Source: a bacterium (GTDB lineage Bacteria; Chloroflexota; Dormibacteria; UBA8260; Bog-877). Taken from it: 29,631 bases of DNA. Below are positions 14,793-26,368 of the stretch, piece by piece (position 1 is the first letter of the stretch; every line of letters begins with the position of its first letter). The position numbers and the translations under genes were made by a program. The stretch is from the NCBI GenBank assembly GCA_021802115.1, contig JAKABA010000034.1, forward strand, positions 1-29,631, read 5' to 3'. Below the pieces are notes generated by a model. That model did no database searches, had not been told where the DNA came from, and worked only from the letters and a program-made list of their open reading frames with translations.

Positions 14793-14826
14793 GCGCATAA
14801 ATATGCAACCATAAGCATATGTGCGC
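14793..14826. promoter_or_regulatory. Putative ArgR operator (tandem ARG-box-like palindromes)
   Basis: The AT-rich island here stands out from the GC-rich surroundings. It contains the palindrome GCATAAATATGC (14795-14806), close to the ARG-box pattern (TGNATWWWWATNCA), and a weaker one, CATAAGCATATG (14810-14821), with centres 15 bp apart. Tandem boxes are how ArgR hexamers usually bind. The argC ATG (14819) lies inside the second box, and the GNAT gene diverges on the other side. argR itself is in the operon, so autoregulation is expected. Confidence 0.7.
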
Positions 14827-15850
14827 TGCCTCTGGGGCCAAACTGCGGGTGGCGGTGGCCGGAGCCACCGGCTACGCCGGCGCCGGCTGCGTGCAACTGC
14901 TGATGGCGCACCCGGATGTAGAGGTGGTCCAGGTCGGCTCCCGCTCCCAATCCGGTCGCCGCCACCAGGACGTGTATCCCGGATCCACCTGCTCCTTGGA
15001 GCTGACGCCCGAGATAGACGCCGCCCGCTGCGATGCGGTGCTCAGCGCCCTGCCGCCCGGAGAGGCGGCCCTTGCAGCTGGGACATGGCTGGCTCAGGGG
15101 GCGGTGGTAATCGACGTGGCGGCTGATTTTCGGCTGCGCGACCCGGCCGCCTATCGCGCCTGGTACGGCCACGACCATCCCGCCCCGGAGCTGCTGGACC
15201 GGGCGGTCGTGGCCCTGCCCGAGCTGGACCCCGAAGGGATCGACGGAGCCTCCCTGCTGTCACTTCCCGGATGCTTCTCCACAGCTGCGATCCTGGCCTG
15301 TGGCCCGGCCGCTATGGCGCATCTGGTCGAACCTCAGGTGGTCGTGGATGCCAAGACGGGAACCAGCGGGGCGGGCCGTCAGGCCGACTCCGGGCACCTT
15401 TTCTCGGAGCTGAACGAGTCGGTTCGAGCCTATGCGGTCGCCGGCCATCGCCATCGGCCGGAGATGGAGCAGACCCTCTCGCAGCTGGGGGGAGAGGAGT
15501 TCGGGGTCACGTTCGTTCCTCACCTGACCCCGATGACCCGGGGGATCGTCGCCACCTGTTACCTCAGCTTGCGGGCGGGAGCGGGCCGCGAGGAGGTTCG
15601 GGCGGCCTACCGGGCCCGTTACCAGGCCGCGCCCTTCGTAGCGTTGGTGGAGCAGGCGGCACCGAGCAAGCTAGCCAGCCACACCAACCTCTGCTTCATC
15701 AGCGTCGAGGTCCAGGGTCCGCACCTGGTGGTCTGCGCGGTCCTCGACAACCTGGGCCGAGGCGCCTCCTCGCAGGCCGTCCAGGTGCTCAACCAGCGCT
15801 TCGGGATGGCGCTCACCGCCGGCTTGGAGGCGGCCCCGCAATGGCCCTGA
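14819..15850 (+). CDS. argC: N-acetyl-gamma-glutamyl-phosphate reductase
   Basis: A 343-aa enzyme that reduces N-acetylglutamyl-phosphate with NADPH to the semialdehyde, the third step of arginine synthesis. It has the NADP loop GATGYAGAG (15-23), the active-site Cys C152 in SLPGCFSTAAILA, and the family segment HRHRPEMEQTL. Length is normal. The ATG at 14819 sits within the putative ARG box, so the mRNA leader must be very short or absent, and ArgR bound there would also cover the start. It heads the arg operon, and its last 10 bases overlap argJ. Confidence 0.95.
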   Translation: MCAASGAKLRVAVAGATGYAGAGCVQLLMAHPDVEVVQVGSRSQSGRRHQDVYPGSTCSLELTPEIDAARCDAVLSALPPGEAALAAGTWLAQGAVVIDVAADFRLRDPAAYRAWYGHDHPAPELLDRAVVALPELDPEGIDGASLLSLPGCFSTAAILACGPAAMAHLVEPQVVVDAKTGTSGAGRQADSGHLFSELNESVRAYAVAGHRHRPEMEQTLSQLGGEEFGVTFVPHLTPMTRGIVATCYLSLRAGAGREEVRAAYRARYQAAPFVALVEQAAPSKLASHTNLCFISVEVQGPHLVVCAVLDNLGRGASSQAVQVLNQRFGMALTAGLEAAPQWP

Positions 15851-17067
15851 CCTCGCGGGTGGAGAGCGCGGTGGGAGGGGTCACCACACCCCGGGGCTTC
15901 CGCGCCGGCACCGCCAGCGCCGACGTCCGAGGCGACGGGTCGCAGCGGCCGGACGTGGCTCTCGTGATCAGCGACCGGCCGGCGGCGGCCGCCGGTGTCT
16001 TCACCCGCAACCTGGTCAGGGCGGCTCCGGTCGTGATCAGCCAGCTGCACCTCAAGCGAGGGGTGGCCCGGGCCGTGGTGGTGAACAGCGGCAACGCCAA
16101 CGCCTGCACTGGGGCCAGGGGCTTGGGAGACGCTCTCCGCATGGCCCAGGCCGCCTCGGACGCCGTCGAGTGTGCCCCTGGCGAGGTGCTGGTGGCTTCC
16201 ACCGGGGTGATCGGGCGGTCCATGCCGATGGCTCGGGTCCTGCCCGCCATCGCCATTGCCGCCGGGGCGGCCACGGAGCGAGGCGGCATGGCCGCGGCCG
16301 AGGCGATCATGACCACGGACACCCGCTCGAAGGAGGCCGTGGCCACCTTCGAGGCGGACGGGATCGTCCATCGCATCGGGGGCATGGCGAAGGGTTCGGG
16401 CATGATCCATCCCGACATGGCGACGCTGCTCGCCTTCGTGACCACAGACGCTCGGGTGGCTCCGGAACTGCTCCGGCCGCTGCTCCAGGCCGCGGTTCGA
16501 GACAGCTTCAATCTGATCAGCGTGGACGGTGACACCAGCACCAACGACTGCTGTCTCCTGCTGGCCAACGGTGCCGCCGAAGGACCTCTGCTGGAGCCCG
16601 GCTCCACAGCGGCAGACCTCTTCGCCAGCGCCCTGGGCCGGGTGCTCCAAGACCTGGCGGAGCAGGTGGTGGCGGATGGCGAGGGCGCCACCAGGACCTT
16701 CTCCGTGCGGGTCACCGGGGCCGTCGACCAGGCTCAGGCGCGGGCCGCCGCGCGCACCGTGACCAGCTCGCCGCTGGTGAAGACGGCGATCCACGGCGGC
16801 GACCCCAACTGGGGACGGATCCTGGCCGCGGTGGGTCGCTCCGGCGCCGAGCTCGCCCTGGATCGCTGCCGCCTATCAATCCAGGGAGAGGAGATGTTCG
16901 CCCTGGGTCAGGTGCTGGAGGCGTCTCTGCAGCGGCTGGTGCCCAAGCTGTCCCAACCTCGGATCGCGATCGAAATCAACCTTGGAGTCGGGGACGCCGA
17001 GGCCACCGCCATCGGCTGTGACCTGAGCTCCGACTATGTGAGGATCAATGCCGACTACTCCACCTGA
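15841..17067 (+). CDS. argJ: Glutamate N-acetyltransferase (ornithine acetyltransferase)
   Basis: A 408-aa enzyme that recycles the acetyl group from N-acetylornithine to glutamate and, in bifunctional members, also makes N-acetylglutamate from acetyl-CoA. The precursor self-cleaves before a Thr in KGSGMIHPDMATLLAF, here T195, giving alpha and beta chains. The VNSGNANACTG and STGVIGRSMPM motifs are present. No argA is found in the window, so this may be the bifunctional kind. The ATG at 15841 overlaps the argC stop by ten bases, and the C-terminal end overlaps argB by 20 bases. The frame is open upstream through argC, but that part is a shadow. Confidence 0.96.
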   Translation: MALTSRVESAVGGVTTPRGFRAGTASADVRGDGSQRPDVALVISDRPAAAAGVFTRNLVRAAPVVISQLHLKRGVARAVVVNSGNANACTGARGLGDALRMAQAASDAVECAPGEVLVASTGVIGRSMPMARVLPAIAIAAGAATERGGMAAAEAIMTTDTRSKEAVATFEADGIVHRIGGMAKGSGMIHPDMATLLAFVTTDARVAPELLRPLLQAAVRDSFNLISVDGDTSTNDCCLLLANGAAEGPLLEPGSTAADLFASALGRVLQDLAEQVVADGEGATRTFSVRVTGAVDQAQARAAARTVTSSPLVKTAIHGGDPNWGRILAAVGRSGAELALDRCRLSIQGEEMFALGQVLEASLQRLVPKLSQPRIAIEINLGVGDAEATAIGCDLSSDYVRINADYST

Positions 17068-17950
17068 CCCCACTCTGTCCACCATCAGCCCCGCCCTCCG
17101 GGCCCGCATCCTGGTGGAGGCCCTTCCCTACATCCGGCGGTTTCACGGCGAGCTGCTGGTGGTGAAACTGGGCGGGGCGGCCATGGACGACCCCCAAGCT
17201 CGTGACACCGTGCTCCAGGACCTGGTCCTGCTCCGATTGGTGGGGCTCCGGCCAGTGCTCGTGCATGGAGGCGGCCGGGAGATAACGGCGATGGCGCGCG
17301 CCCTCGGCCTGGAGACCCGGTTCATCGGCGGGCTGAGGGTCACCGACGAGCGCACCATGGAGGTCGCCAAGATGGTGCTGACCGGCAAGATCACGCCGGA
17401 ACTGGTGGCCGCCATCCACCGCCTGGGGGGGCGCGCGATGGGCCTCTCCGGCGAGGATGGCCCGACTCTGCTCGTGCGCCGTCAGATGGGGCCCCAGGGG
17501 GAGGACCTGGGCTTGGTGGGAGCGGTCGAGGAGGTCAACCCCGAGCCGGTGCTGGCCATCTCGGAGCGAGGTCTGATCCCGGTGGTGGCCTCGATCGGAC
17601 TCGGCTACGACGGGCTCAGCTACAACGTCAACGCGGACACCGTGGCGGCCGCCCTGGCGGCCGAGCTGAAGGCCGCCAAACTGCTGATGCTGACCGACGT
17701 GGTGGGCGTCCAGGGCCGCCAGGGAGAGCTTCTGAGCGAGCTGACCCTGGCCCAGGCGGAGGGGCTGCTGGCGGATGGGATCGCCCGGGATGGGATGATC
17801 CCCAAGCTGAAAGCCGCCTGCGACGCCGCCCGGGCTGGGGTCACCGTACACATCGTCGATGGCCGTGATCCTCATTCGATCCTGCTGGAGCTGCTGACCG
17901 CGTCCGGGGTTGGCACGATGATCGACGCGGCCCCTTCCGGGGCAGCCTGA
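17048..17950 (+). CDS. argB: Acetylglutamate kinase
   Basis: A 300-aa amino-acid kinase, the second step of the pathway. It has KLGGAAM (phosphate loop, about 39-45), LVHGGGREIT, GLRVTDERTMEV, and NVNADTVAAALAAEL near the nucleotide site. The N-terminal helix SPALRARILVEALPYIRRF matches the extra helix of arginine-inhibited hexameric kinases such as those of Thermotoga and Pseudomonas, so feedback inhibition by arginine is likely. The ATG overlaps argJ by 20 bases with GAGG a few bases before it, and the stop is one base before the GTG of argD. Confidence 0.95.
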   Translation: MPTTPPDPTLSTISPALRARILVEALPYIRRFHGELLVVKLGGAAMDDPQARDTVLQDLVLLRLVGLRPVLVHGGGREITAMARALGLETRFIGGLRVTDERTMEVAKMVLTGKITPELVAAIHRLGGRAMGLSGEDGPTLLVRRQMGPQGEDLGLVGAVEEVNPEPVLAISERGLIPVVASIGLGYDGLSYNVNADTVAAALAAELKAAKLLMLTDVVGVQGRQGELLSELTLAQAEGLLADGIARDGMIPKLKAACDAARAGVTVHIVDGRDPHSILLELLTASGVGTMIDAAPSGAA

Positions 17951-17951
17951 G

Positions 17952-19166
17952 GTGACCTCACCGACCCTGGCGGAGCGTGAGGCCGCCGCCCTTTGCGGGA
18001 CCTACCGGAGAGTTCCGGTGACCCTGGTGCGAGGGGACGGCTGCTTCGTGGAGACAGCCGACGGGCGCCGGCTGCTGGATCTGGTTGGCGGGATCGCGGT
18101 CAACCTGCTGGGTCACTGTCAGGCGGAGGTGGTGGCTGCCGCCACCGCGCAGATGGGCCGCCTGATGCACACCAGCAACCTGTACTACACCGAGCCCCAG
18201 GTGGAGCTCGCCGAGCGGCTGGCGGCGAGCGCATTCCCCAGCCGGGCCTTCCTCTGCAACAGTGGGGCCGAGGCCAACGAGGCCGCCATCAAGGTGGCCC
18301 GCAAGTGGGGCCAGCTCCACCGTCAGGGGGCCTACACCATCCTGACCCTGGAGGGCGCCTTTCACGGCCGCACCCTGGCCACTCTGGCAGCCACGGGCAA
18401 CGCTCATTACAGCGACCCCTTCCGGCCCCTTCCGGATGGCTTCCGCCAGGTGCCGCGCGATGACCTGGGCGCAGTCGAGCTGGCCCTCGCGGACGCAGGC
18501 CGCCCCGCGGTCGCGGTCATGGCCGAGCCGATTCAGGGCGAGAGCGGGGTGCATCTTCTGGAGGACTCCTATCTCCGCGGGCTGCGCGAACTCTGCGACC
18601 AGCACCAGGCTCTGCTGATCCTGGACGAGGTCCAGACCGGGATGGGGCGGACCGGCAGGATGTGGGCCCATCAGCACTCCGGCGCGGTGCCGGACGTGAT
18701 GACGGTCGCCAAGGGAGTTGGGGGCGGCCTGCCGTTGGGGGCGGCCCTGGTTGGGAAGCGGGCCGATGTGTTTGAGGCCGGTGACCACGGCAGCACTTTC
18801 GGAGGCAATCCTGTGGCCGCCGCCGCCGGCCTGGCGGTGCTCAGGGTGGTCGAGCGCGACCATCTATGGCAGCGGGCGGCAGTGGCAGGGGATCAATTCA
18901 AGGAGGCCATCCTGGGCCTCCGCCAGGAAGGCCACCCGGTGGTCGAGACCAGAGGTCGTGGGCTGCTGCTGGGGGTCGGGCTAGCCATTCCGATCGCAGC
19001 CGATCTGGGGCGCTTGGCGCTCGACGAGGGGATCTTGGTCAACCCGATCGGCGACTCGACCATCCGCCTGGCTCCGCCTCTGACGATTTCCGACGGTGAG
19101 ATCGAGATGGCGGTCGCAGCCCTCGGGCGGGCGCTGGGACGAGCCTCCGGAGCCAGCCGGCCATGA
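17952..19166 (+). CDS. argD: Acetylornithine aminotransferase
   Basis: A 404-aa class III PLP-dependent transaminase that converts N-acetylglutamate semialdehyde to N-acetylornithine with glutamate as donor. Key residues include the PLP-binding Lys K254 (TVAKGVGGGLPLG), D225 of LDEVQTGMGRTG, the CNSGAEANEAAIKVARK block (102-118) and FHGRTLATLAATG. The GTG start follows the argB stop by one base. The stop overlaps the argR ATG as ATGA, so the two are coupled. Confidence 0.96.
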   Translation: MTSPTLAEREAAALCGTYRRVPVTLVRGDGCFVETADGRRLLDLVGGIAVNLLGHCQAEVVAAATAQMGRLMHTSNLYYTEPQVELAERLAASAFPSRAFLCNSGAEANEAAIKVARKWGQLHRQGAYTILTLEGAFHGRTLATLAATGNAHYSDPFRPLPDGFRQVPRDDLGAVELALADAGRPAVAVMAEPIQGESGVHLLEDSYLRGLRELCDQHQALLILDEVQTGMGRTGRMWAHQHSGAVPDVMTVAKGVGGGLPLGAALVGKRADVFEAGDHGSTFGGNPVAAAAGLAVLRVVERDHLWQRAAVAGDQFKEAILGLRQEGHPVVETRGRGLLLGVGLAIPIAADLGRLALDEGILVNPIGDSTIRLAPPLTISDGEIEMAVAALGRALGRASGASRP

Positions 19167-19693
19167 CCTCGGTGGAGCTGAAGCGCGCTCGCCAGGCCGC
19201 CATCGTGGCCGTGCTCCGCAACCATCCCGTGGAGACCCAGGCTCAGCTCGCCGAGGAGCTGCGGCGCCTCCGAATTGAGGCTGATCAGGCCACCATCAGC
19301 CGAGATCTGCGCCAGCTGGGAGTGGCTCGCGTGGAGGGGTCATCGGGCCGCCGTTATCTGCCCCCACGGGAGGACCGCCAGGGACGGCTGGCCCAGGTGC
19401 TGCGGACCCAGCTAGTCCATGTGGAGCAGGTGGCCGCGATGGTGGTCCTGCACACCGCATCTGGGGCGGCCCCGGTGGTGGCGTCGGCGGTGGATGGGCT
19501 GAGCCTGCCCCAGGTGGCAGGCACGGTGGCGGGGGACGACACGGTCTTTGTCCAGGCTCGGTCGGCCACCGCCGCGCGGCAGGTGGTGGAGCGGCTGGAG
19601 CTGGCCCGAAGCGCAATGGACGACGACCACCTGGAGTGGTCGAGCTGGTTGCCAGCCGACAGCCCCAGGGGCGAGGATGGGGGGCATGGCTGA
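19163..19693 (+). CDS. argR: Arginine repressor
   Basis: A 176-aa hexameric regulator. The N-terminal winged HTH includes QLAEELRRLRIEADQATISRDLRQLGV (about 28-54), with TISRDL as the recognition helix. The C-terminal oligomerisation domain carries AGTVAGDDTVFV, whose D125 and D126 bind arginine between trimers. At about 150 aa the core is standard. The extra 20 or so residues at the C-terminus are Asp/Gly-rich. It binds ARG boxes and is the likely regulator of the site at 14793-14826. It sits inside the operon it controls, an arrangement known from Actinobacteria (argCJBDFRGH). The ATG overlaps argD and the end overlaps argG by 8 bases. Confidence 0.95.
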   Translation: MTSVELKRARQAAIVAVLRNHPVETQAQLAEELRRLRIEADQATISRDLRQLGVARVEGSSGRRYLPPREDRQGRLAQVLRTQLVHVEQVAAMVVLHTASGAAPVVASAVDGLSLPQVAGTVAGDDTVFVQARSATAARQVVERLELARSAMDDDHLEWSSWLPADSPRGEDGGHG

Positions 19694-20984
19694 GCACCGA
19701 CCGCGCTGCGTACTGGCATTCTCTGGAGGGCTCGACACCACGGTCGCAGTCCACTGGCTCACCCATGAGCGCGGCTTCGAGGTGATCACTCTGTCCGCCG
19801 ACCTCGGCGAGACCAAGGATGCTGAGGAGCTGCAGCGGCGGGCCCTCCACGCGGGGGCGACGGCTGCCCACGTGGTCGATGCCAAGGAGCTCTTCCTGAC
19901 CAATTTTGTGTGGCCGTCGCTGCAGGCCGGAGCCCTCTACCAGGGCGTCTATCCGCTCGCGACCGCCCTTGGGCGGCCGCTCATAGCCAGGCTGCTGGTG
20001 GAGGTGGCGCGCGAGACCGGAGCGGCGGCTGTCGCCCACGGCTGCACCGCCAAGGGCAATGATCAGGTGCGCTTCGATGTCGCGGTGGGGGCTCTTGCCC
20101 CGGCGCTCCAGGTGGTGGCGCCGCTGCGCGACTGGCAGATGGGGCGCAGCGAGGAGATCGCCTACGCCGCCGAGAACGGGCTGGCGGTCAGGGCCACCAA
20201 GGAGAGTCCCTACAGCATCGACGCCAACCTCTGGGGCCGCAGCGTGGAGACCGGAGTCCTGGAGGACCCCTGGGTCGAGCCCCCGGAGGACGCCTTCGAC
20301 TGGACCGTTGACCCGGCCAGGGCTCCCGAGGCCGGGCTGGTGGTGGAGGTGCACTTTGAGCAGGGGCTGCCCACCCGGCTCGACGGAGAGGAACTGGCGC
20401 CAGTCGAGCTGGTGACCAGACTCAACCTCTTGGCGGGCGCCCATGGCGTGGGTCGGATCGACCATATCGAGGACCGGTTGGTGGGGATCAAGTCACGTGA
20501 GCTCTACGAAGCGCCCGCCGCGGTGGTGCTCGACTTCGCCCACCGGGAGGTGGAGTCGCTCACGCTCGCCCGCGACGTGCTTCGCTTCAAGCGCTTGGTT
20601 GCCGACGAGTGGGCACAACTCACCTACGATGGACTCTGGTTCTCGGCGCTCCGGCAGAGCCTGGCCGCCTTTGTGGGTTCGACTCAGCATTTCGTCACGG
20701 GCGACGTGCGGTTGCACCTTCGCCAGGGCGCAATCCGTCTGCTCGGGCGGAGCAGCCCGAGCTCCCTGTACCGCCGGGAGCTCGCCACCTACGAGCGCGC
20801 CGAGGACCAGTTCCGCCATCAATCGGCCGAGGGGTTCCTCAACATCTTCGGTCTGCCGCTGCGGACCCAGGCGTCCATCCAGGGCAACCTCTGGGAGGAA
20901 TCCATCCCTCTGCTCCAGTCCGCTCCCCGGGGTATCGCCCAGGGCGGCCACCCCGCCGACCCTGCCGATGCCGACAAGCCCTGA
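19686..20984 (+). CDS. argG: Argininosuccinate synthase
   Basis: A 432-aa enzyme that joins citrulline and aspartate using ATP. It has the PP-loop ATP site AFSGGLDTT (11-19), then HGCTAKGNDQVRFD and the ANLWGRSVETG citrulline/aspartate segment. The C-terminal region is slightly longer than the usual 400 aa, ending in an Asp/Ala/Pro-rich stretch. I chose the ATG at 19686 (a second at 19677 lies three codons upstream) since it starts the family-typical segment. A G-rich run precedes both. It overlaps argR by eight bases and argH by 17. Citrulline requires argF, which is missing here. Confidence 0.95.
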   Translation: MAEHRPRCVLAFSGGLDTTVAVHWLTHERGFEVITLSADLGETKDAEELQRRALHAGATAAHVVDAKELFLTNFVWPSLQAGALYQGVYPLATALGRPLIARLLVEVARETGAAAVAHGCTAKGNDQVRFDVAVGALAPALQVVAPLRDWQMGRSEEIAYAAENGLAVRATKESPYSIDANLWGRSVETGVLEDPWVEPPEDAFDWTVDPARAPEAGLVVEVHFEQGLPTRLDGEELAPVELVTRLNLLAGAHGVGRIDHIEDRLVGIKSRELYEAPAAVVLDFAHREVESLTLARDVLRFKRLVADEWAQLTYDGLWFSALRQSLAAFVGSTQHFVTGDVRLHLRQGAIRLLGRSSPSSLYRRELATYERAEDQFRHQSAEGFLNIFGLPLRTQASIQGNLWEESIPLLQSAPRGIAQGGHPADPADADKP

Positions 20985-22404
20985 GCCGAAGCCCGGTTTC
21001 GCCAAGGCCTGGAGCGGCCGTCTGGAGGGGGGCAGCAACCCCACCCTCGAGGACTACACCAGCTCGCTCCAGGAGGACCTGCCCCTGGCGCCGTTCGATC
21101 TGGAGGGGTCTCGGGCGCACGCGCGGGCCCTCGCCAGGGCTGGGCTTCTCGACGCTGCCACCACTGTCGAGCTACTAGCTGGCCTGGAGCGCGTTGGCGA
21201 CGAGCTCGCGGCCGGTAGCTTCCAGTTTCTGAATTCGGATGAGGACATACACATGGCGGTGGAGCGCCGCTTGACGGAGCTCATCGGGGACCCGGCGCGC
21301 CGGCTTCACACCGGTCGCAGTCGCAACGACCAGGTGGCTCTGGACCTTCGCCTCTGGGCCAAGCAGGCGTGCTGGAGGCTGGTTGAAGCCGCAACTGGGC
21401 TGCAGGGAGTGCTGGTGGCCCGAGCGCGTCGAGAGCGGCTCACCCTGATGCCCGGTTACACCCACTTGCAGCGGGCCCAGCCGATCCACCTGGCTCACCA
21501 CCTGCTCGCCTATTTCGAGATGCTGGAGCGAGATGTGCAGCGGCTGCGGCAGTGCCGCCAACGGTTGGACCTCTCGCCCCTGGGGGCTGGAGCTCTGGCC
21601 GGCACGACGCTGGCGATCGAGCGGGCCGCGGTGGCGAGGGAGCTCGGTTTCGCCGGGGTCACCGGGAACAGCCTGGACGCGGTCTCGGACCGCGACTTCG
21701 CCGTGGAGCTGGTCTTCGACTGCGCTCTGGTCGCGGTCCACCTGTCGCGGCTGGCCGAGGACCTGATCCTCTGGAACACCAGGGAGTTCTCCTTCGTCAG
21801 CCTTCCGGACAGCTGGGCCACCGGGTCCAGTCTGATGCCCCAGAAGAAGAACCCGGATGTCCTGGAGCTGGTCCGCGGCCGGGCCGCGCGGCCGATCAGC
21901 TCCCTGATGGGGTTGCTGACCGTTCTCAAGGGGCTGCCCATGAGCTACAACCGCGACCTCCAGGAGGACAAGCACCATCTCTTCTCGGCGGTGGCCGCGA
22001 CCGAGGCCAGCCTGCTGGCCCTAACCGGGCTGCTGGCGGAGGCGCGCTTCAACCGGGAGCGGATGGAGCTGGCGGCCCGCGACCCCGAGCTGCTGGCGAC
22101 CGATCTTGCTGAGCACCTGGTGGCCCACGGGGTGGCGTTTCGAAGGGCCCACGAGCTGGTCGGCCAGGCGGTGCGCCAGGCCGAGGAGCGGGGCCAGAAG
22201 TTGGACTCATGGCTCAGGTCCAGCTGGCGGGAGCTGGGCTTACCCGACGATCCGGACAGCTCCGGTCTGTTCGACGCCCGGGCCGCCCTGGCTCGCCGGG
22301 AGCAGCCCGGGGCGCCCGGTCCAAGCGCGACCGAGGCGGCGCTGAGGGAGGCGGCAGCCCGTCTTCGCCGAAGCCGGGCGTGGGTCGCCGGGCAAAGGCG
22401 GTGA
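20968..22404 (+). CDS. argH: Argininosuccinate lyase
   Basis: A 478-aa homotetrameric enzyme of the fumarase/aspartase superfamily that splits argininosuccinate into arginine and fumarate. The family signature GSSLMPQKKNPD lies at 286-297 with catalytic Ser S287, and the HTGRSRNDQVALDLRLW block (114-130) and GYTHLQRAQPIHLAHH (163-178) are intact. The ATG lies inside the argG tail, giving a 17-base overlap. The stop is GTGA, whose GTG opens a short ORF that reaches the next gene. It is the last arg gene. Confidence 0.95.
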   Translation: MPTSPEPKPGFAKAWSGRLEGGSNPTLEDYTSSLQEDLPLAPFDLEGSRAHARALARAGLLDAATTVELLAGLERVGDELAAGSFQFLNSDEDIHMAVERRLTELIGDPARRLHTGRSRNDQVALDLRLWAKQACWRLVEAATGLQGVLVARARRERLTLMPGYTHLQRAQPIHLAHHLLAYFEMLERDVQRLRQCRQRLDLSPLGAGALAGTTLAIERAAVARELGFAGVTGNSLDAVSDRDFAVELVFDCALVAVHLSRLAEDLILWNTREFSFVSLPDSWATGSSLMPQKKNPDVLELVRGRAARPISSLMGLLTVLKGLPMSYNRDLQEDKHHLFSAVAATEASLLALTGLLAEARFNRERMELAARDPELLATDLAEHLVAHGVAFRRAHELVGQAVRQAEERGQKLDSWLRSSWRELGLPDDPDSSGLFDARAALARREQPGAPGPSATEAALREAAARLRRSRAWVAGQRR

Positions 22405-22491: not shown

Positions 22492-24447
22492 ATGTATCGC
22501 AAGCTCTATCTGCCGCTGGACAACTCCGATCACTCCACCGCCGCCGCCGAGGTGGCGATCCGCCTGGCCAAGGCCACCGGAGCGGAGATCGTGGGCAGTC
22601 ACGTGTATGCCGCCCGCATGCACGACTACCGCTTCAAGCAGATGGAGTACACCCTCCCCGAGGAGTACCAGGATGAGGTCGAGCTGGAGCGGCAGCGGAA
22701 GATCCACGACAGCCTGATCACGACCGGGTTGGGCCTGATCTCGGACTCTTATCTGGAGGTCGCCCAGAGGCGCTGCCTGGAGGAGGGGATTCCCTTCACC
22801 CCCAAGACCTTCGATGGCAAGAACTGGGAGGTCCTGGTCAAGGACATCGAGGAGTCCCAGTACGACCTGGTGCTGATGGGAGCGTGCGGCCTGGGCCAGG
22901 TGAAGGAGACGCAGATCGGGACCTGCGTGGACCGGGTGGTCCGGAGGGCGCACCAGGACACGATCGTGGTCCGCCATCGGGAGGGCCGTGACCCACTCGC
23001 AGGTCCAATTGTGGTGGCCATTGACGGCTCATCTCAGTCGTTCGCCGGGCTGCGCTCGGCGCTGGAGATGGGCCGGGCGCTGGACCTGCCGGTGGAGGCG
23101 GTCTCCGTCTACGACCCATACCTTCACTACGTTCTCTTCAACGGCATCGTGGGGGTGCTCTCCGAGAAGGCCAGCAAGGTATTCCGCTTCAAGGAGCAGG
23201 AGGCTCTCCACGAGGAGATCATCGACACCGGGCTGGCGATGATCTACTCCTCCCACCTCAAGGTGGCCAAGGAGGTCGCCAAGGCGGATGGGTACGACCT
23301 CCCGATCACATTGCTAGATGGCAAGGCCTTTGAGCAGGTGCTGCGCTACGTCCGCGACCGAGATGCCTCCCTGCTGGTGTGTGGCCGGATCGGGGTCCAC
23401 TCCGACCAGGACATGGACATCGGCGGCAACAGCGAGAACCTGCTCCGGCTCGCCCCCTGCAGTGTGATGCTCTCCTCGCGAACCTACGTGCCTCCCATCG
23501 ACATGAGGGGGGCAGCCTCGGTGGTCTGGACCCCGGAGGCCAATGGGGTGCTGGATCGGATCCCCTGCTCAGCTCAGGGGTTGGCAAGGACGGCGGTCCT
23601 GCGCTGGGCCATGGAGCGGGGCCACTCGATCATCTCGCAGGACCTGGTCAGCGCGGCCCTCGGGGACATCCTGCCCCCGGAGGCATCCGCGGCGATCGGG
23701 ATCCAGCGTGGGGCCCAGGCGGTGGCCATCACCGAGACCGAGGTCCACATCTGCCGTGAGTGTGGCTACACCGCCAGGGGCGTCCGTCCGGTGGCCTGCC
23801 CGGTGTGCGGGGCAGCTCAGGAGCAGTTCTCCAAGGTGGACCACGAGAGCATGCGGCGCGACGCCGAGGAGGAGGGCGAGGTGTCCGAGGAGGTCACCTT
23901 CGACAATCGCAAGATCGGATGGTCAACCGAGGCTCGAAACCTGCTCCATGAGATGCCCGCGGGCTACCTCCGGCGCCGGATCAAGGCCAAGGTTGAGAAG
24001 GTCGCCCGCACCAGGCGCCTGGCGGTGGTTACCGTGCAGGTTGCGGCCCCCATCATCGACCCGGAGCTGGGCCGGTCGGCTCACGCCCAACCCCACCGCA
24101 CCCCGCTCGAGGACGAGCTCGACGCCCCGGCGGCGGCCTTGGTCCCTGCCGGTGGCTTCGAGGATCCCGCAGCCGATGCCGACGAGGTGGACCTGGCCTT
24201 GCACACCTACGCCTCCGGTGGCAGTGGCGGCCGCTTCATCCCGCGTGAGGCGTCGCCGACCGTGGCCCGTCTGCGGCCGCGCGATGAGGGGACCACTCCT
24301 GGCCTTGGCGGCGTCCTGGATGGAGCGGAGGGGCCCGTTGGGACCGAAGGGAGCGCTCCGGCGCCTCAGTGCCCGTTCCACGGCCAGCCCGACGTCCAGC
24401 AGAAGATCGAGTCGGCGCTCTCGCAGGGGGTGGGGCGAGAGGGCTGA
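22492..24447 (+). CDS. Tandem USP protein fused to two PCP_red-like domains and a zinc ribbon
   Basis: A 651-aa protein of unusual build. Residues 1-162 form a universal stress protein domain with the complete ATP motif G130-x2-G133-x9-G143-T. Residues 172-330 form a second USP domain with a degenerate version of that motif. Residues 346-395 (VVWTPEANGVLDRIPCSAQGLARTAV onward) match the PCP_red domain pattern known from the C-terminus of light-independent protochlorophyllide reductase subunit B. Residues 421-439 hold a CRECG/CPVCG zinc ribbon like that of rubrerythrin. Residues 477-520 (WSTEARNLLHEMPAGYLRRR) look like a second PCP_red copy. The tail is Asp/Ala/Gly-rich. Whether it binds nucleotide, metal or a cofactor is unknown. 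The ATG has no Shine-Dalgarno; it may be coupled to the bridge ORF. The arg genes upstream do not indicate its function. Confidence 0.85.
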   Translation: MYRKLYLPLDNSDHSTAAAEVAIRLAKATGAEIVGSHVYAARMHDYRFKQMEYTLPEEYQDEVELERQRKIHDSLITTGLGLISDSYLEVAQRRCLEEGIPFTPKTFDGKNWEVLVKDIEESQYDLVLMGACGLGQVKETQIGTCVDRVVRRAHQDTIVVRHREGRDPLAGPIVVAIDGSSQSFAGLRSALEMGRALDLPVEAVSVYDPYLHYVLFNGIVGVLSEKASKVFRFKEQEALHEEIIDTGLAMIYSSHLKVAKEVAKADGYDLPITLLDGKAFEQVLRYVRDRDASLLVCGRIGVHSDQDMDIGGNSENLLRLAPCSVMLSSRTYVPPIDMRGAASVVWTPEANGVLDRIPCSAQGLARTAVLRWAMERGHSIISQDLVSAALGDILPPEASAAIGIQRGAQAVAITETEVHICRECGYTARGVRPVACPVCGAAQEQFSKVDHESMRRDAEEEGEVSEEVTFDNRKIGWSTEARNLLHEMPAGYLRRRIKAKVEKVARTRRLAVVTVQVAAPIIDPELGRSAHAQPHRTPLEDELDAPAAALVPAGGFEDPAADADEVDLALHTYASGGSGGRFIPREASPTVARLRPRDEGTTPGLGGVLDGAEGPVGTEGSAPAPQCPFHGQPDVQQKIESALSQGVGREG

Positions 24448-24785: not shown

Positions 24786-25172
24786 CTATGGCCTCTCGGA
24801 CGCGTCCTCATCCGCGCTGAAGTCACCCAGCAGGTGGGGGCTGCCTTCCTCCAGGGAGAAGACGCTAGCGCATTCCGGGCACTCCATCTCGGCACCCACC
24901 TCGTAGTCTCCGGGGGGCAGCAGGACGGCGCCGCAGGCTGGGCAGGTGATGGAGATGTCGGGTGCGTATCGGCTCTCCCTGGCCATGGCAGCCGCGGCCG
25001 AGGCCAGGTCGAGAGCCACCGCGCCACAGCTGGCGCAGCGGAACGCGGCCAACTTGTCCTGGTGGTCCAGGTAGGAGCCGCTGGAGTCGACAAACACGGC
25101 ACCCCCCAGGAGCTCGAATCGAGCCGGCTGGCAGCCATAGGGACAGACCAACTTTCGCTTCGCGGAGGCCAT
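24786..25172 (-). CDS. Small protein with four Cys-pair motifs (putative zinc ribbons)
   Basis: A 128-aa protein. Four Cys pairs are visible: CPYGC (C10, C14), CASC (C46, C49), CPAC (C77, C80) and CPEC (C98, C101). They could make two zinc ribbons, the second pair-of-pairs (CPACGAVLLPPGDYEVGAEMECPEC) resembling ribbons in small transcription or translation factors. No enzymatic motif is present, and the C-terminus is acidic (DFSADEDASERP). I do not recognise a named family. The start ATG follows the dusB stop by six bases, so they form a two-gene operon, and a role in tRNA or RNA metabolism would fit that company. It could also be a metal-storage or chaperone protein. Confidence 0.75.
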   Translation of the reverse strand: MASAKRKLVCPYGCQPARFELLGGAVFVDSSGSYLDHQDKLAAFRCASCGAVALDLASAAAAMARESRYAPDISITCPACGAVLLPPGDYEVGAEMECPECASVFSLEEGSPHLLGDFSADEDASERP

Positions 25173-25178
25173 CCCGGC

Positions 25179-26255
25179 TCAGCCCTCCCCAGAGGTGAAC
25201 GCTGGCCGGTGCCAGCCTCCGGGGCCCTCACCGGCGCTGGCGATCTCGGCAAAAAGCTCCTCCAGATCGGCCCGGGTGTTCAGATCCGCCACCCGAGCGC
25301 GCAGCCGGGCCGCCCCGCTGCAACCCTTGATCGCCCATACCACGAACTTGCGAGCAAGACGCACTCCGAGGCGTTCGCCATGTTGGTCGACCACCGCATC
25401 CCAGTGCCGTCGGGCCAGCCACAGGCGCTCCTGAAACGAGGGTTCTGGGCCGGGATCACCCCGCCGCAGCTGCCGCACCGTCTGCTCCAGGAAATTCCAG
25501 TCTCCCAACATCCCCCGGGCCACCACGACTCCGTCGACCACGCCCTGGCGGATCCGAGCCTCCACCTCCGCTGGGTCGCGCACGTCCCCGGACCCGAAGA
25601 CTGGGATGTGGTCAACCGCCTCCCGAACTCGGGCAATCTCATCCCAGTCGGCCCAGCCGGTGTAGCGCTGGGCCCGGGTGCGACCGTGGACGGTGACCGC
25701 GGCCACGCCCACCTGCTCCAGTGCCCGGCACAGTTCCGGGGCATTGATGCTCTGCTGGTCCCAACCGAGGCGCATCTTGGCGGTGACTGGCACCGAGACC
25801 GAGTTCACCATGGCCTCCAGGACCGCCACGGTCTGGTCGATGTCACGGGCCAGCGCGGCGCCCGAACCCAACCTGACCACCTTGGGAACCGGGCAGCCCA
25901 GGTTCACGTCCACGATGTCGGCCCCACGAGCGACGCAGATCTGGGCGGCATCCGCCATCAGGCTTGGGTCGCAGCCCACCAGCTGAGCGGCCACCGGGCG
26001 CTCGTCCGAGCCCATGTCGAGAATCCGGTCGAGGGCCTCCTCCGGCGCTCTGACCAGCGCCGCAGCCGCGGTCATCTCGGTGCAGGTCAGGCCCGCGCCA
26101 AGCTCCCGCGCCAGGTCGCGGAAGGCGCGGTCCGTGATCCCCACCATGGGCGCGATGAACACCGGGCTGAAGAGCTCGACACTGCCGATCCGCAACCCCG
26201 CGCCAACTGGATAGCCGGTGGCGGCGGCTGGTTCGGTGTTGAGGGGCGTGATCAA
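25179..26255 (-). CDS. dusB: tRNA-dihydrouridine synthase (DusB-like)
   Basis: A 358-aa FMN enzyme that reduces uridines in the tRNA D-loop. The N-terminal TIM barrel has IAPMVGITDRAFRDLARELGAGLTCTEM (FMN and NADPH region), and the catalytic Cys C121 lies in DVNLGCPVPKVVRLGSGAAL. TAKMRLGW and VTVHGRTRAQRYTGWADW follow, then a GSGDV barrel strand and the C-terminal helical tRNA domain. The sequence is DusB/Dus1-like, but the exact tRNA position modified cannot be read from it. Start: TTG at 26255, with GAGG (26264-26267) eight bases before; an internal GTG could also serve. It is divergent from coaX with a 157-bp gap and heads a pair with the zinc-ribbon gene. Confidence 0.93.
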   Translation of the reverse strand: MITPLNTEPAAATGYPVGAGLRIGSVELFSPVFIAPMVGITDRAFRDLARELGAGLTCTEMTAAAALVRAPEEALDRILDMGSDERPVAAQLVGCDPSLMADAAQICVARGADIVDVNLGCPVPKVVRLGSGAALARDIDQTVAVLEAMVNSVSVPVTAKMRLGWDQQSINAPELCRALEQVGVAAVTVHGRTRAQRYTGWADWDEIARVREAVDHIPVFGSGDVRDPAEVEARIRQGVVDGVVVARGMLGDWNFLEQTVRQLRRGDPGPEPSFQERLWLARRHWDAVVDQHGERLGVRLARKFVVWAIKGCSGAARLRARVADLNTRADLEELFAEIASAGEGPGGWHRPAFTSGEG

Positions 26256-26368
26256 AGGGCTGGCCTCGTGACAGTTGCCTGTCGGGCTGGTCCCGGGGCC
26301 GGGCCCGACTAATGGGCTCAGTATCTCCCATCGCCCTCAGGGCGGCCCCACCGGGTCTCCAGCCTGGA

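Follow-up and report, generated by a model that had tools for sequence, protein, structure and literature searches.

What does a universal stress protein (USP) joined to a domain of chlorophyll synthesis do in a soil bacterium without signs of phototrophy? The question is raised by one gene on contig JAKABA010000034.1 (assembly GCA_021802115.1; Chloroflexota, Dormibacteria, Bog-877), the 29,631 nucleotides of which are here called the window. The gene encodes two USP domains, a PCP_red domain, a rubredoxin-like ribbon and a second PCP_red domain, and its product and relatives are referred to as USP-PCP_red; no photosynthesis genes were identified in the window. We conclude with considerable confidence that USP-PCP_red is functionally tied, as a dedicated partner, to a module containing a divergent cytochrome bd-like oxidase. 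More tentatively, we propose that it is a soluble cytoplasmic partner of this OR-N/CydAA′-like bd module and takes part in haem handling or assembly.

In a protein search, 7999 candidates were scored and at least 5299 of them were relatives at E 0.001; beyond the top of this list, many may be plain USPs. A genome scan confirmed 104 loci, of which 80 were retained as the locus set; they come from Dormibacterota, Acidobacteria, Rhodothermales, Methylomirabilota, Entotheonella, Myxococcales and others. The 16 loci nearest to the window (L001-L015 and L072; identity at least 72%) are treated as its clade and the other 64 as non-clade. The nearest genome analysed, G001, is 91% complete; it is probably one genome with that of L012 (99% identical over residues 1-456), the matches lying at the same contig coordinates.

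The tie to the oxidase is seen in the distribution of the two genes. In 17 genomes hand-picked from 41, all 13 that carry USP-PCP_red have a divergent bd-like match, and the four without PCP_red lack one, a single genome among these having canonical CydA only. The comparison was extended to 290 genomes from three phyla, many of them metagenome-assembled and possibly incomplete, with USP-PCP_red called at E 1e-80. Among 119 Acidobacteriota, 11 genomes have both genes and 108 neither; the same 11 have bd-like scores of at least 344.8 bits, and the other 16 matched genomes reach at most 109 bits. The phylum of G001 (101 genomes) divides into 8 with both and 93 with neither, the same 8 having best bd-like scores of at least 207.9 and the other 19 matched genomes at most 114. 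The 70 Methylomirabilota comprise 40 genomes with both, two with USP-PCP_red only (G294 and G339), seven with the bd-like gene only (G331, G336, G341, G344, G348, G349 and G350) and 21 with neither; the best bd-like score is at least 343.7 in all 47 bd-positive genomes. The USP match of G326 is a 228-residue piece, and the bd-like matches of G341, G344 and G349 are fragments situated where contigs end. The three phyla sum to 59 genomes with both, two and seven with one, and 222 with neither (Fisher odds ratio approximately 936, kinship ignored). In Methylomirabilota, many of the profile matches extend across a single in-frame stop (the frames being often of about 640 residues), perhaps where the tail of the profile continues beyond the true stop.

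The same tie is visible in gene order. Neighbouring open reading frames (ORFs) of the 80 loci, in 76 of which the main ORF was found, were grouped by Louvain clustering and representatives scanned. The clusters include antisense ORFs, and cluster 2 mixes bd-like with cytochrome c proteins; partner counts refer to plus-strand cluster members only, and bd-like genes were recounted with a hidden Markov model (HMM) of our own, built from 21 seeds, all from L143-L154. The matches of this HMM in L023, L025 and L041 are not independent, because these loci apparently belong to the same genomes as the seed sources L154, L151 and L152. Recurrent neighbours are the divergent cytochrome bd subunit I-like protein, cytochromes c, a cytochrome c-EB_dh protein, a radical SAM/SPASM-PCP_red protein, an Mrp/ApbC-like NTPase and a small PCP_red protein. 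The bd-like gene lies within the fetched DNA of 47 of the 64 non-clade loci (on the opposite strand in L073), the Mrp-like gene in 40, the small PCP_red gene in 39 and the radical SAM-PCP_red gene in 30; 60 of the 64 have at least one of these or cytochromes. All four loci without any partner (L019, L028, L053 and L057) belong to genomes with a bd-like gene elsewhere. More generally, where the fetched DNA lacked a bd-like gene, one was found elsewhere in 24 of 26 genomes (17 from non-clade loci and 9 from the 16 clade loci, with three further genomes as positive controls); the misses were G045 (L031) and G058 (L068). Five Dormibacterota/Chloroflexi loci (L018, L020, L023, L025 and L041) share one gene order, namely USP-PCP_red, bdA1, Rieske, cytochrome b and bdA2, and the spacing from USP-PCP_red to bdA1 is -117 to +11 bp in six such loci by longest-ORF calls. 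In Acidobacteriota, an Fe-S/molybdopterin-type protein, possibly an ACIII ActB-like subunit, is encoded upstream of the bd-like gene (L077:26-2317 and relatives).

The window itself hides this association, since members of its clade have the gene behind argH and outside the oxidase operon. Of the 16 clade loci, 12 have argH immediately before USP-PCP_red, whereas argH is matched in none of the other 64 loci; three of the remaining clade loci hold less than 420 bases of upstream sequence, and the 2.3 kb available for L004 contain no argH. In f1, the family to which the window belongs, the bdA1-cytochrome b-bdA2 set is found on contigs other than that of USP-PCP_red (eight regions, L143-L150, in seven of which a Rieske gene was called), and G001 has such a bd-like/cytochrome b operon. 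A linkage to arginine synthesis or a stress regulon, as the window alone might suggest, was rejected: the arg neighbours are bound to the clade and the recurrent neighbours elsewhere are respiratory. The sequence-only reading had seen a good candidate for a new type of stress response and had proposed listing the neighbours of proteins with the same domain order. The neighbours that recur tie the protein to a bd-like oxidase, cytochromes and Rieske/cytochrome b; no result of this analysis points to a stress function, and a new type of stress response is not supported. Its description of a nucleotide module joined to a metal or redox module is borne out by the architecture, and the "unknown purpose" attached to it gives way to the tie with a respiratory module.

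The partner is a divergent member of its family. PF01654 (cytochrome bd subunit I) matches three of the five bd-like proteins scanned at 42-73 bits (L051, L023 and L143:9003), and divergent genome frames at 30-57 bits; L024:37-1296 and L143:12304-13692, without a match at E 0.001, were tied to the bd-like group by HMM or BLAST instead. In an alignment with two canonical CydA proteins, the first-helix His is kept except in L024, where the ORF starts later. Inspection of this alignment by eye indicates that the second His of subunit I (IHR or similar) is also kept and that the middle part differs from both canonical proteins. In Nitrospina, bd-like oxidases conserve the haem b ligands and lack quinol-binding residues (PMC3578206). 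OR-N CydAA′ has been proposed to use cytochrome c; Nitrospinota are one of the groups in which OR-N bd-like oxidases are conserved, and experimental confirmation of the exact subunit composition and function of these enzymes is said to be awaited (PMC10839748).

The domain chain read from the sequence is real, being supported by Pfam matches and predicted folds (Table 1). The protein scores 123.3 bits against PF00582 (Usp; curated cut-off 24) and 56.1 bits against PF08369 (PCP_red; curated cut-off 32.5), the latter over two stretches that correspond to both segments proposed earlier. The predicted PCP_red fold matches the solved structures 2kru, 2l09 and ChlB of 2ynm, with 1.1 Å over 50 residues for 2ynm chain D residues 479-528; absent matches in fold searches were not counted as evidence. 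The USP nucleotide motif has the form G-2x-G-9x-G-S/T, and it is complete in the first domain only, as had been noted; the second lacks the final S/T. The proposed CxxC/CxxC ribbon is likewise present, scoring 26.9 bits against PF21349 (rubrerythrin-type rubredoxin; cut-off 26.5), and the solved structure that it resembles most closely is that of the rubrerythrin rubredoxin domain, on which ground a DNA-type zinc finger was rejected. BchB models match at 35.9 bits (cut-off 509) and 35 bits (cut-off 490), both below cut-off and restricted to the C-terminal domain of BchB. The lack of any sign of photosynthesis extends to G001, whose three PF08369 matches fall in USP-PCP_red and a double-PCP_red protein, none being BchB-like; a photosynthetic link was accordingly set aside.

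Table 1. Features of the USP-PCP_red gene and its upstream neighbours in the window
Feature	Coordinates	Strand	Basis or remark
USP-USP-PCP_red-ribbon-PCP_red protein, 651 aa	22492..24447	+	Pfam profile matches and family alignment
USP domain 1, residues 1-161	22492..22974	+	Complete G-2x-G-9x-G-T motif (G130/G133/G143-T144)
USP1 insert, strongly conserved, HDYRFKQMEYTLPEEY, residues 44-59	22621..22668	+	Alignment
USP domain 2, approximately residues 171-330	23002..23481	+	Motif glycines G298/G301/G311 kept; next residue G, not S
USP2 insert, strongly conserved, YDPYLHY...FRFKEQEALHEEIIDTGL, residues 207-256	23110..23259	+	Alignment
PCP_red domain 1, residues 340-389	23509..23658	+	
Rubredoxin-like ribbon, residues 418-448	23743..23835	+	C421, C424, C436, C439
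PCP_red domain 2, residues 477-517	23920..24042	+	
C-terminal tail, residues 531-651	24082..24444	+	Predicted model mostly of very low confidence
Candidate haem regulatory motif of Cys-Pro type, CPFHG, residues 627-631	24370..24384	+	Motif pattern
argC-argJ-argB-argD-argR-argG-argH, upstream of the USP-PCP_red gene	14819..22404	+	

An alignment of the window protein with 33 relatives, picked for length and spread, reveals which parts are constant. The Usp and PCP_red profiles each match all 34 rows at E 0.01, and PF21349 matches 19; the four ribbon cysteines are invariant in 34 of 34 rows. Invariance extends to the glycines of the nucleotide motif in each USP domain and, within the two inserts, to many positions. 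The number of PCP_red copies varies. Most aligned relatives outside the clade have, by eye, a third copy after residue 530 that is missing from the window protein; the USP frames of f1 carry two PF08369 matches and those of most f2 genomes with a match carry three. By eye, the extremes are one PCP_red and no ribbon in L155, L156 and L157 and about five or six copies in L158 and L159, and single-PCP_red members were found in genomes G173, G212 and G253. Downstream of the gene, a plus-strand ORF at 24834-26312 is probably not a gene, because it matches no family and the minus strand carries a tRNA-dihydrouridine synthase gene (25179-26255) that overlaps it.

The leads towards haem come from the tail and from the PCP_red partners. 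In haem regulatory motifs, Cys-Pro (CP) is followed by a hydrophobic residue and lies in a flexible region. The dipeptide itself defines the motif, and Irr of Bradyrhizobium binds haem through a CP motif, GCPWHD (PMC11442138). The window tail, with C627-P-F-H, is of this pattern. CP plus a hydrophobic residue is present in 35 of 74 tails (of the 80 loci, four lack the main ORF and two the anchor motif; the L011 tail, of length 0, was scored as lacking the motif). Within these tails 46 of 51 Cys lie in such motifs, whereas 1000 shuffles gave 1.6 on average and never more than 7; in a control set, the C-terminal 130 residues encoded by each of 518 neighbouring genes, the figure is 19 of 850 Cys. 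The small PCP_red proteins (L024:10848-11333, L077:14384-14863 and 37 more ORFs) contain CPF in 39 of 39 cases and an N-terminal Cys ribbon in 38, and their genes often adjoin that of the Mrp-like NTPase. Dormibacterota also have a double-PCP_red protein of about 240 residues (L111:9779-10513 in G001; relatives in L112-L116 and at L154:11563-12312); that of G001 has 244 residues and two CP motifs, near the N-terminus in L111, and its gene adjoins one for a MarR-type regulator. In L154 it is divergent from USP-PCP_red.

Two of the radical SAM/SPASM-PCP_red proteins (L024:4581-5885 and L077:14880-16250; 28 more ORFs are known) were scanned with HMMs. The L024 protein scores 346 bits for NirJ2, 301 for AhbD, 256 for TIGR04053 and 214 for NirJ, and the L077 protein 298 for AhbD, 276 for NirJ2, 265 for TIGR04053 and 158 for NirJ, all below the model cut-offs (395-650 bits). 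CxxxCxxC occurs in 27 of the 30 ORFs, the three exceptions being ORFs of 115 to 367 residues, and CX2CX5CX20-21C, the auxiliary-cluster motif of NirJ and AhbC (PMC12505453), in 29. These proteins are candidates for a sister group of NirJ/AhbC/AhbD and for a new tetrapyrrole enzyme. Together, the CP motifs and tetrapyrrole-type neighbours may be taken as hints of haem binding, as leads and not as proof.

These observations can be assembled into a working model. The tandem USP part would bind ATP, as its motif and fold suggest, and the conserved USP inserts would dock on a membrane or assembly partner. We infer haem binding from the CP motif, the tetrapyrrole-type radical SAM neighbours and the occurrence of PCP_red in protochlorophyllide reductase; the PCP_red domains and the flexible CP tail would hold haem, or a tetrapyrrole related to it, or would sense its presence. 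The rubredoxin-like ribbon presumably binds metal and may be an added metal or redox switch, and ATP and redox state would then set the timing of haem hand-over, or of an assembly step, to the bd-like oxidase. A cytoplasmic location is presumed, as is action in assembly rather than in regulation. A wider proposal, which we consider speculative and somewhat improbable, is that PCP_red is a general haem- or tetrapyrrole-handling domain and that USP-PCP_red, the small CPF-PCP_red protein, radical SAM-PCP_red and the Mrp-like carrier form a dedicated, hitherto undescribed system that matures the cofactors of OR-N bd-like oxidases, perhaps by producing a modified haem or inserting it.

Several points weigh against this account of a haem-handling partner. 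Binding of ATP and of haem is a prediction, made from motifs, fold, gene neighbours and the known occurrence of PCP_red. The co-occurrence is broken in 9 of 70 Methylomirabilota genomes, the bd-like score limits were set after the gap in scores had been seen, and the sampled genomes are related, some (e.g. G042, G052 and G068) having supplied alignment rows. The radical SAM-PCP_red gene, present in fewer than half of the non-clade loci, occurs in none of the 16 clade loci, and the clade's bd-like operon is known from relatives such as G001, not from the window's own genome. Rhodothermia are among the 39 of 74 tails without a CP motif, although the small PCP_red proteins beside Rhodothermia members do have one; the CP pattern was written after the sequences had been seen, and the loci are related. 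The three minimal members, with one PCP_red by eye and no ribbon, show that ribbon and repeats are not essential everywhere. Finally, USP-PCP_red is also reported from archaea of the Methanomicrobiaceae (PMC12159084), which lie outside the groups in which a bd-like partner was sought.

The main rival is regulation: USP-PCP_red would sense ATP and redox state or O2 and control the expression or activity of the bd-like oxidase, with no haem handling and with the PCP_red domains as protein-protein docking modules. We regard this as rather unlikely; it leaves the radical SAM-PCP_red, Mrp-like and CP-motif partners of the same clusters unexplained, and no DNA-binding family is among the Pfam matches of the window protein. 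An electron-transfer or structural subunit, whose ribbon and PCP_red domains pass electrons to a cytochrome complex or scaffold it on the cytoplasmic side, would fit the invariant ribbon cysteines, their rubrerythrin-like fold and a neighbourhood rich in cytochromes. It is nevertheless improbable, since the ribbon is absent from the three minimal members, which adjoin bd-like genes, and the cytochrome c and Rieske neighbours suggest another point of electron entry. The CP tail could, under any of these explanations, be a docking peptide or metal site instead of a haem motif, as its varied forms (CPFH, CPVPHG and CPFSAL) and patchy occurrence might suggest; its close likeness to the Irr motif (PMC11442138) and its presence in two further kinds of PCP_red protein from the genomes concerned make this doubtful. 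That the protein is an ordinary USP with incidental linkage is very improbable: the window gene does sit behind arg genes, and USP fusions are common (PMC12159084), but the three-phylum co-occurrence and the operon structure with bd-like genes in several phyla speak strongly against it.

How does USP-PCP_red compare with known systems? The tandem USPs TTHA0350 (3ab8), Rv2623 (3cis) and UspE lack the conserved inserts, PCP_red, ribbon, CP tail and oxidase partner. DPOR BchB/ChlB shares the PCP_red profile and fold, although only the C-terminal part of the BchB models matches, and BchB differs from the family described here, in which one to about six PCP_red copies are seen by eye. The bare fusion is not new, because a USP joined to the same C-terminal domain (LI-POR_suB-like_C) has been reported for Methanomicrobiaceae, where the arrangement was called unusual; that assignment is an automatic annotation, and the available text mentions neither ribbon, repeats nor a bd-like partner (PMC12159084). 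In titles and abstract openings from part of the matches in the open-licence literature, no description was found of the ribbon, the repeats, the bd-like partner, the radical SAM/Mrp/small PCP_red set or the CP motifs. The best-scoring models and CX2CX5CX20-21C link radical SAM-PCP_red to NirJ, AhbC and AhbD, which lack the added PCP_red domain. PF08369 is among the most prevalent Pfams of genomes identified as phototrophs and has been used to infer phototrophy (PMC12815261); used alone it could mislabel genomes such as G001, where it is confined to USP-PCP_red and the double-PCP_red protein. The tie to bd-like genes would give PCP_red, so far familiar mainly from chlorophyll synthesis, a function in bacteria that show no sign of a phototrophic life.

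With regard to the oxidase, the available portions of the descriptions of OR-N and bd-like oxidases do not mention a USP-PCP_red partner (PMC10839748, PMC3578206). N. marina has USPs that increase when O2 is low and that are encoded beside induced operons, electron transport among them (PMC8115632). The likeness of the present bd-like proteins to the OR-N type CydAA′ and bd-like oxidases of Nitrospira and Nitrospinota is drawn from alignment and profile scores: judged by eye on one alignment, the present proteins keep two His of subunit I and seem to lack the canonical middle part, which recalls the bd-like oxidases described as having no quinol-binding residues (PMC3578206). A family associated with bd-like genes in three phylum samples offers a direct handle on the assembly and the haems of the OR-N oxidases.
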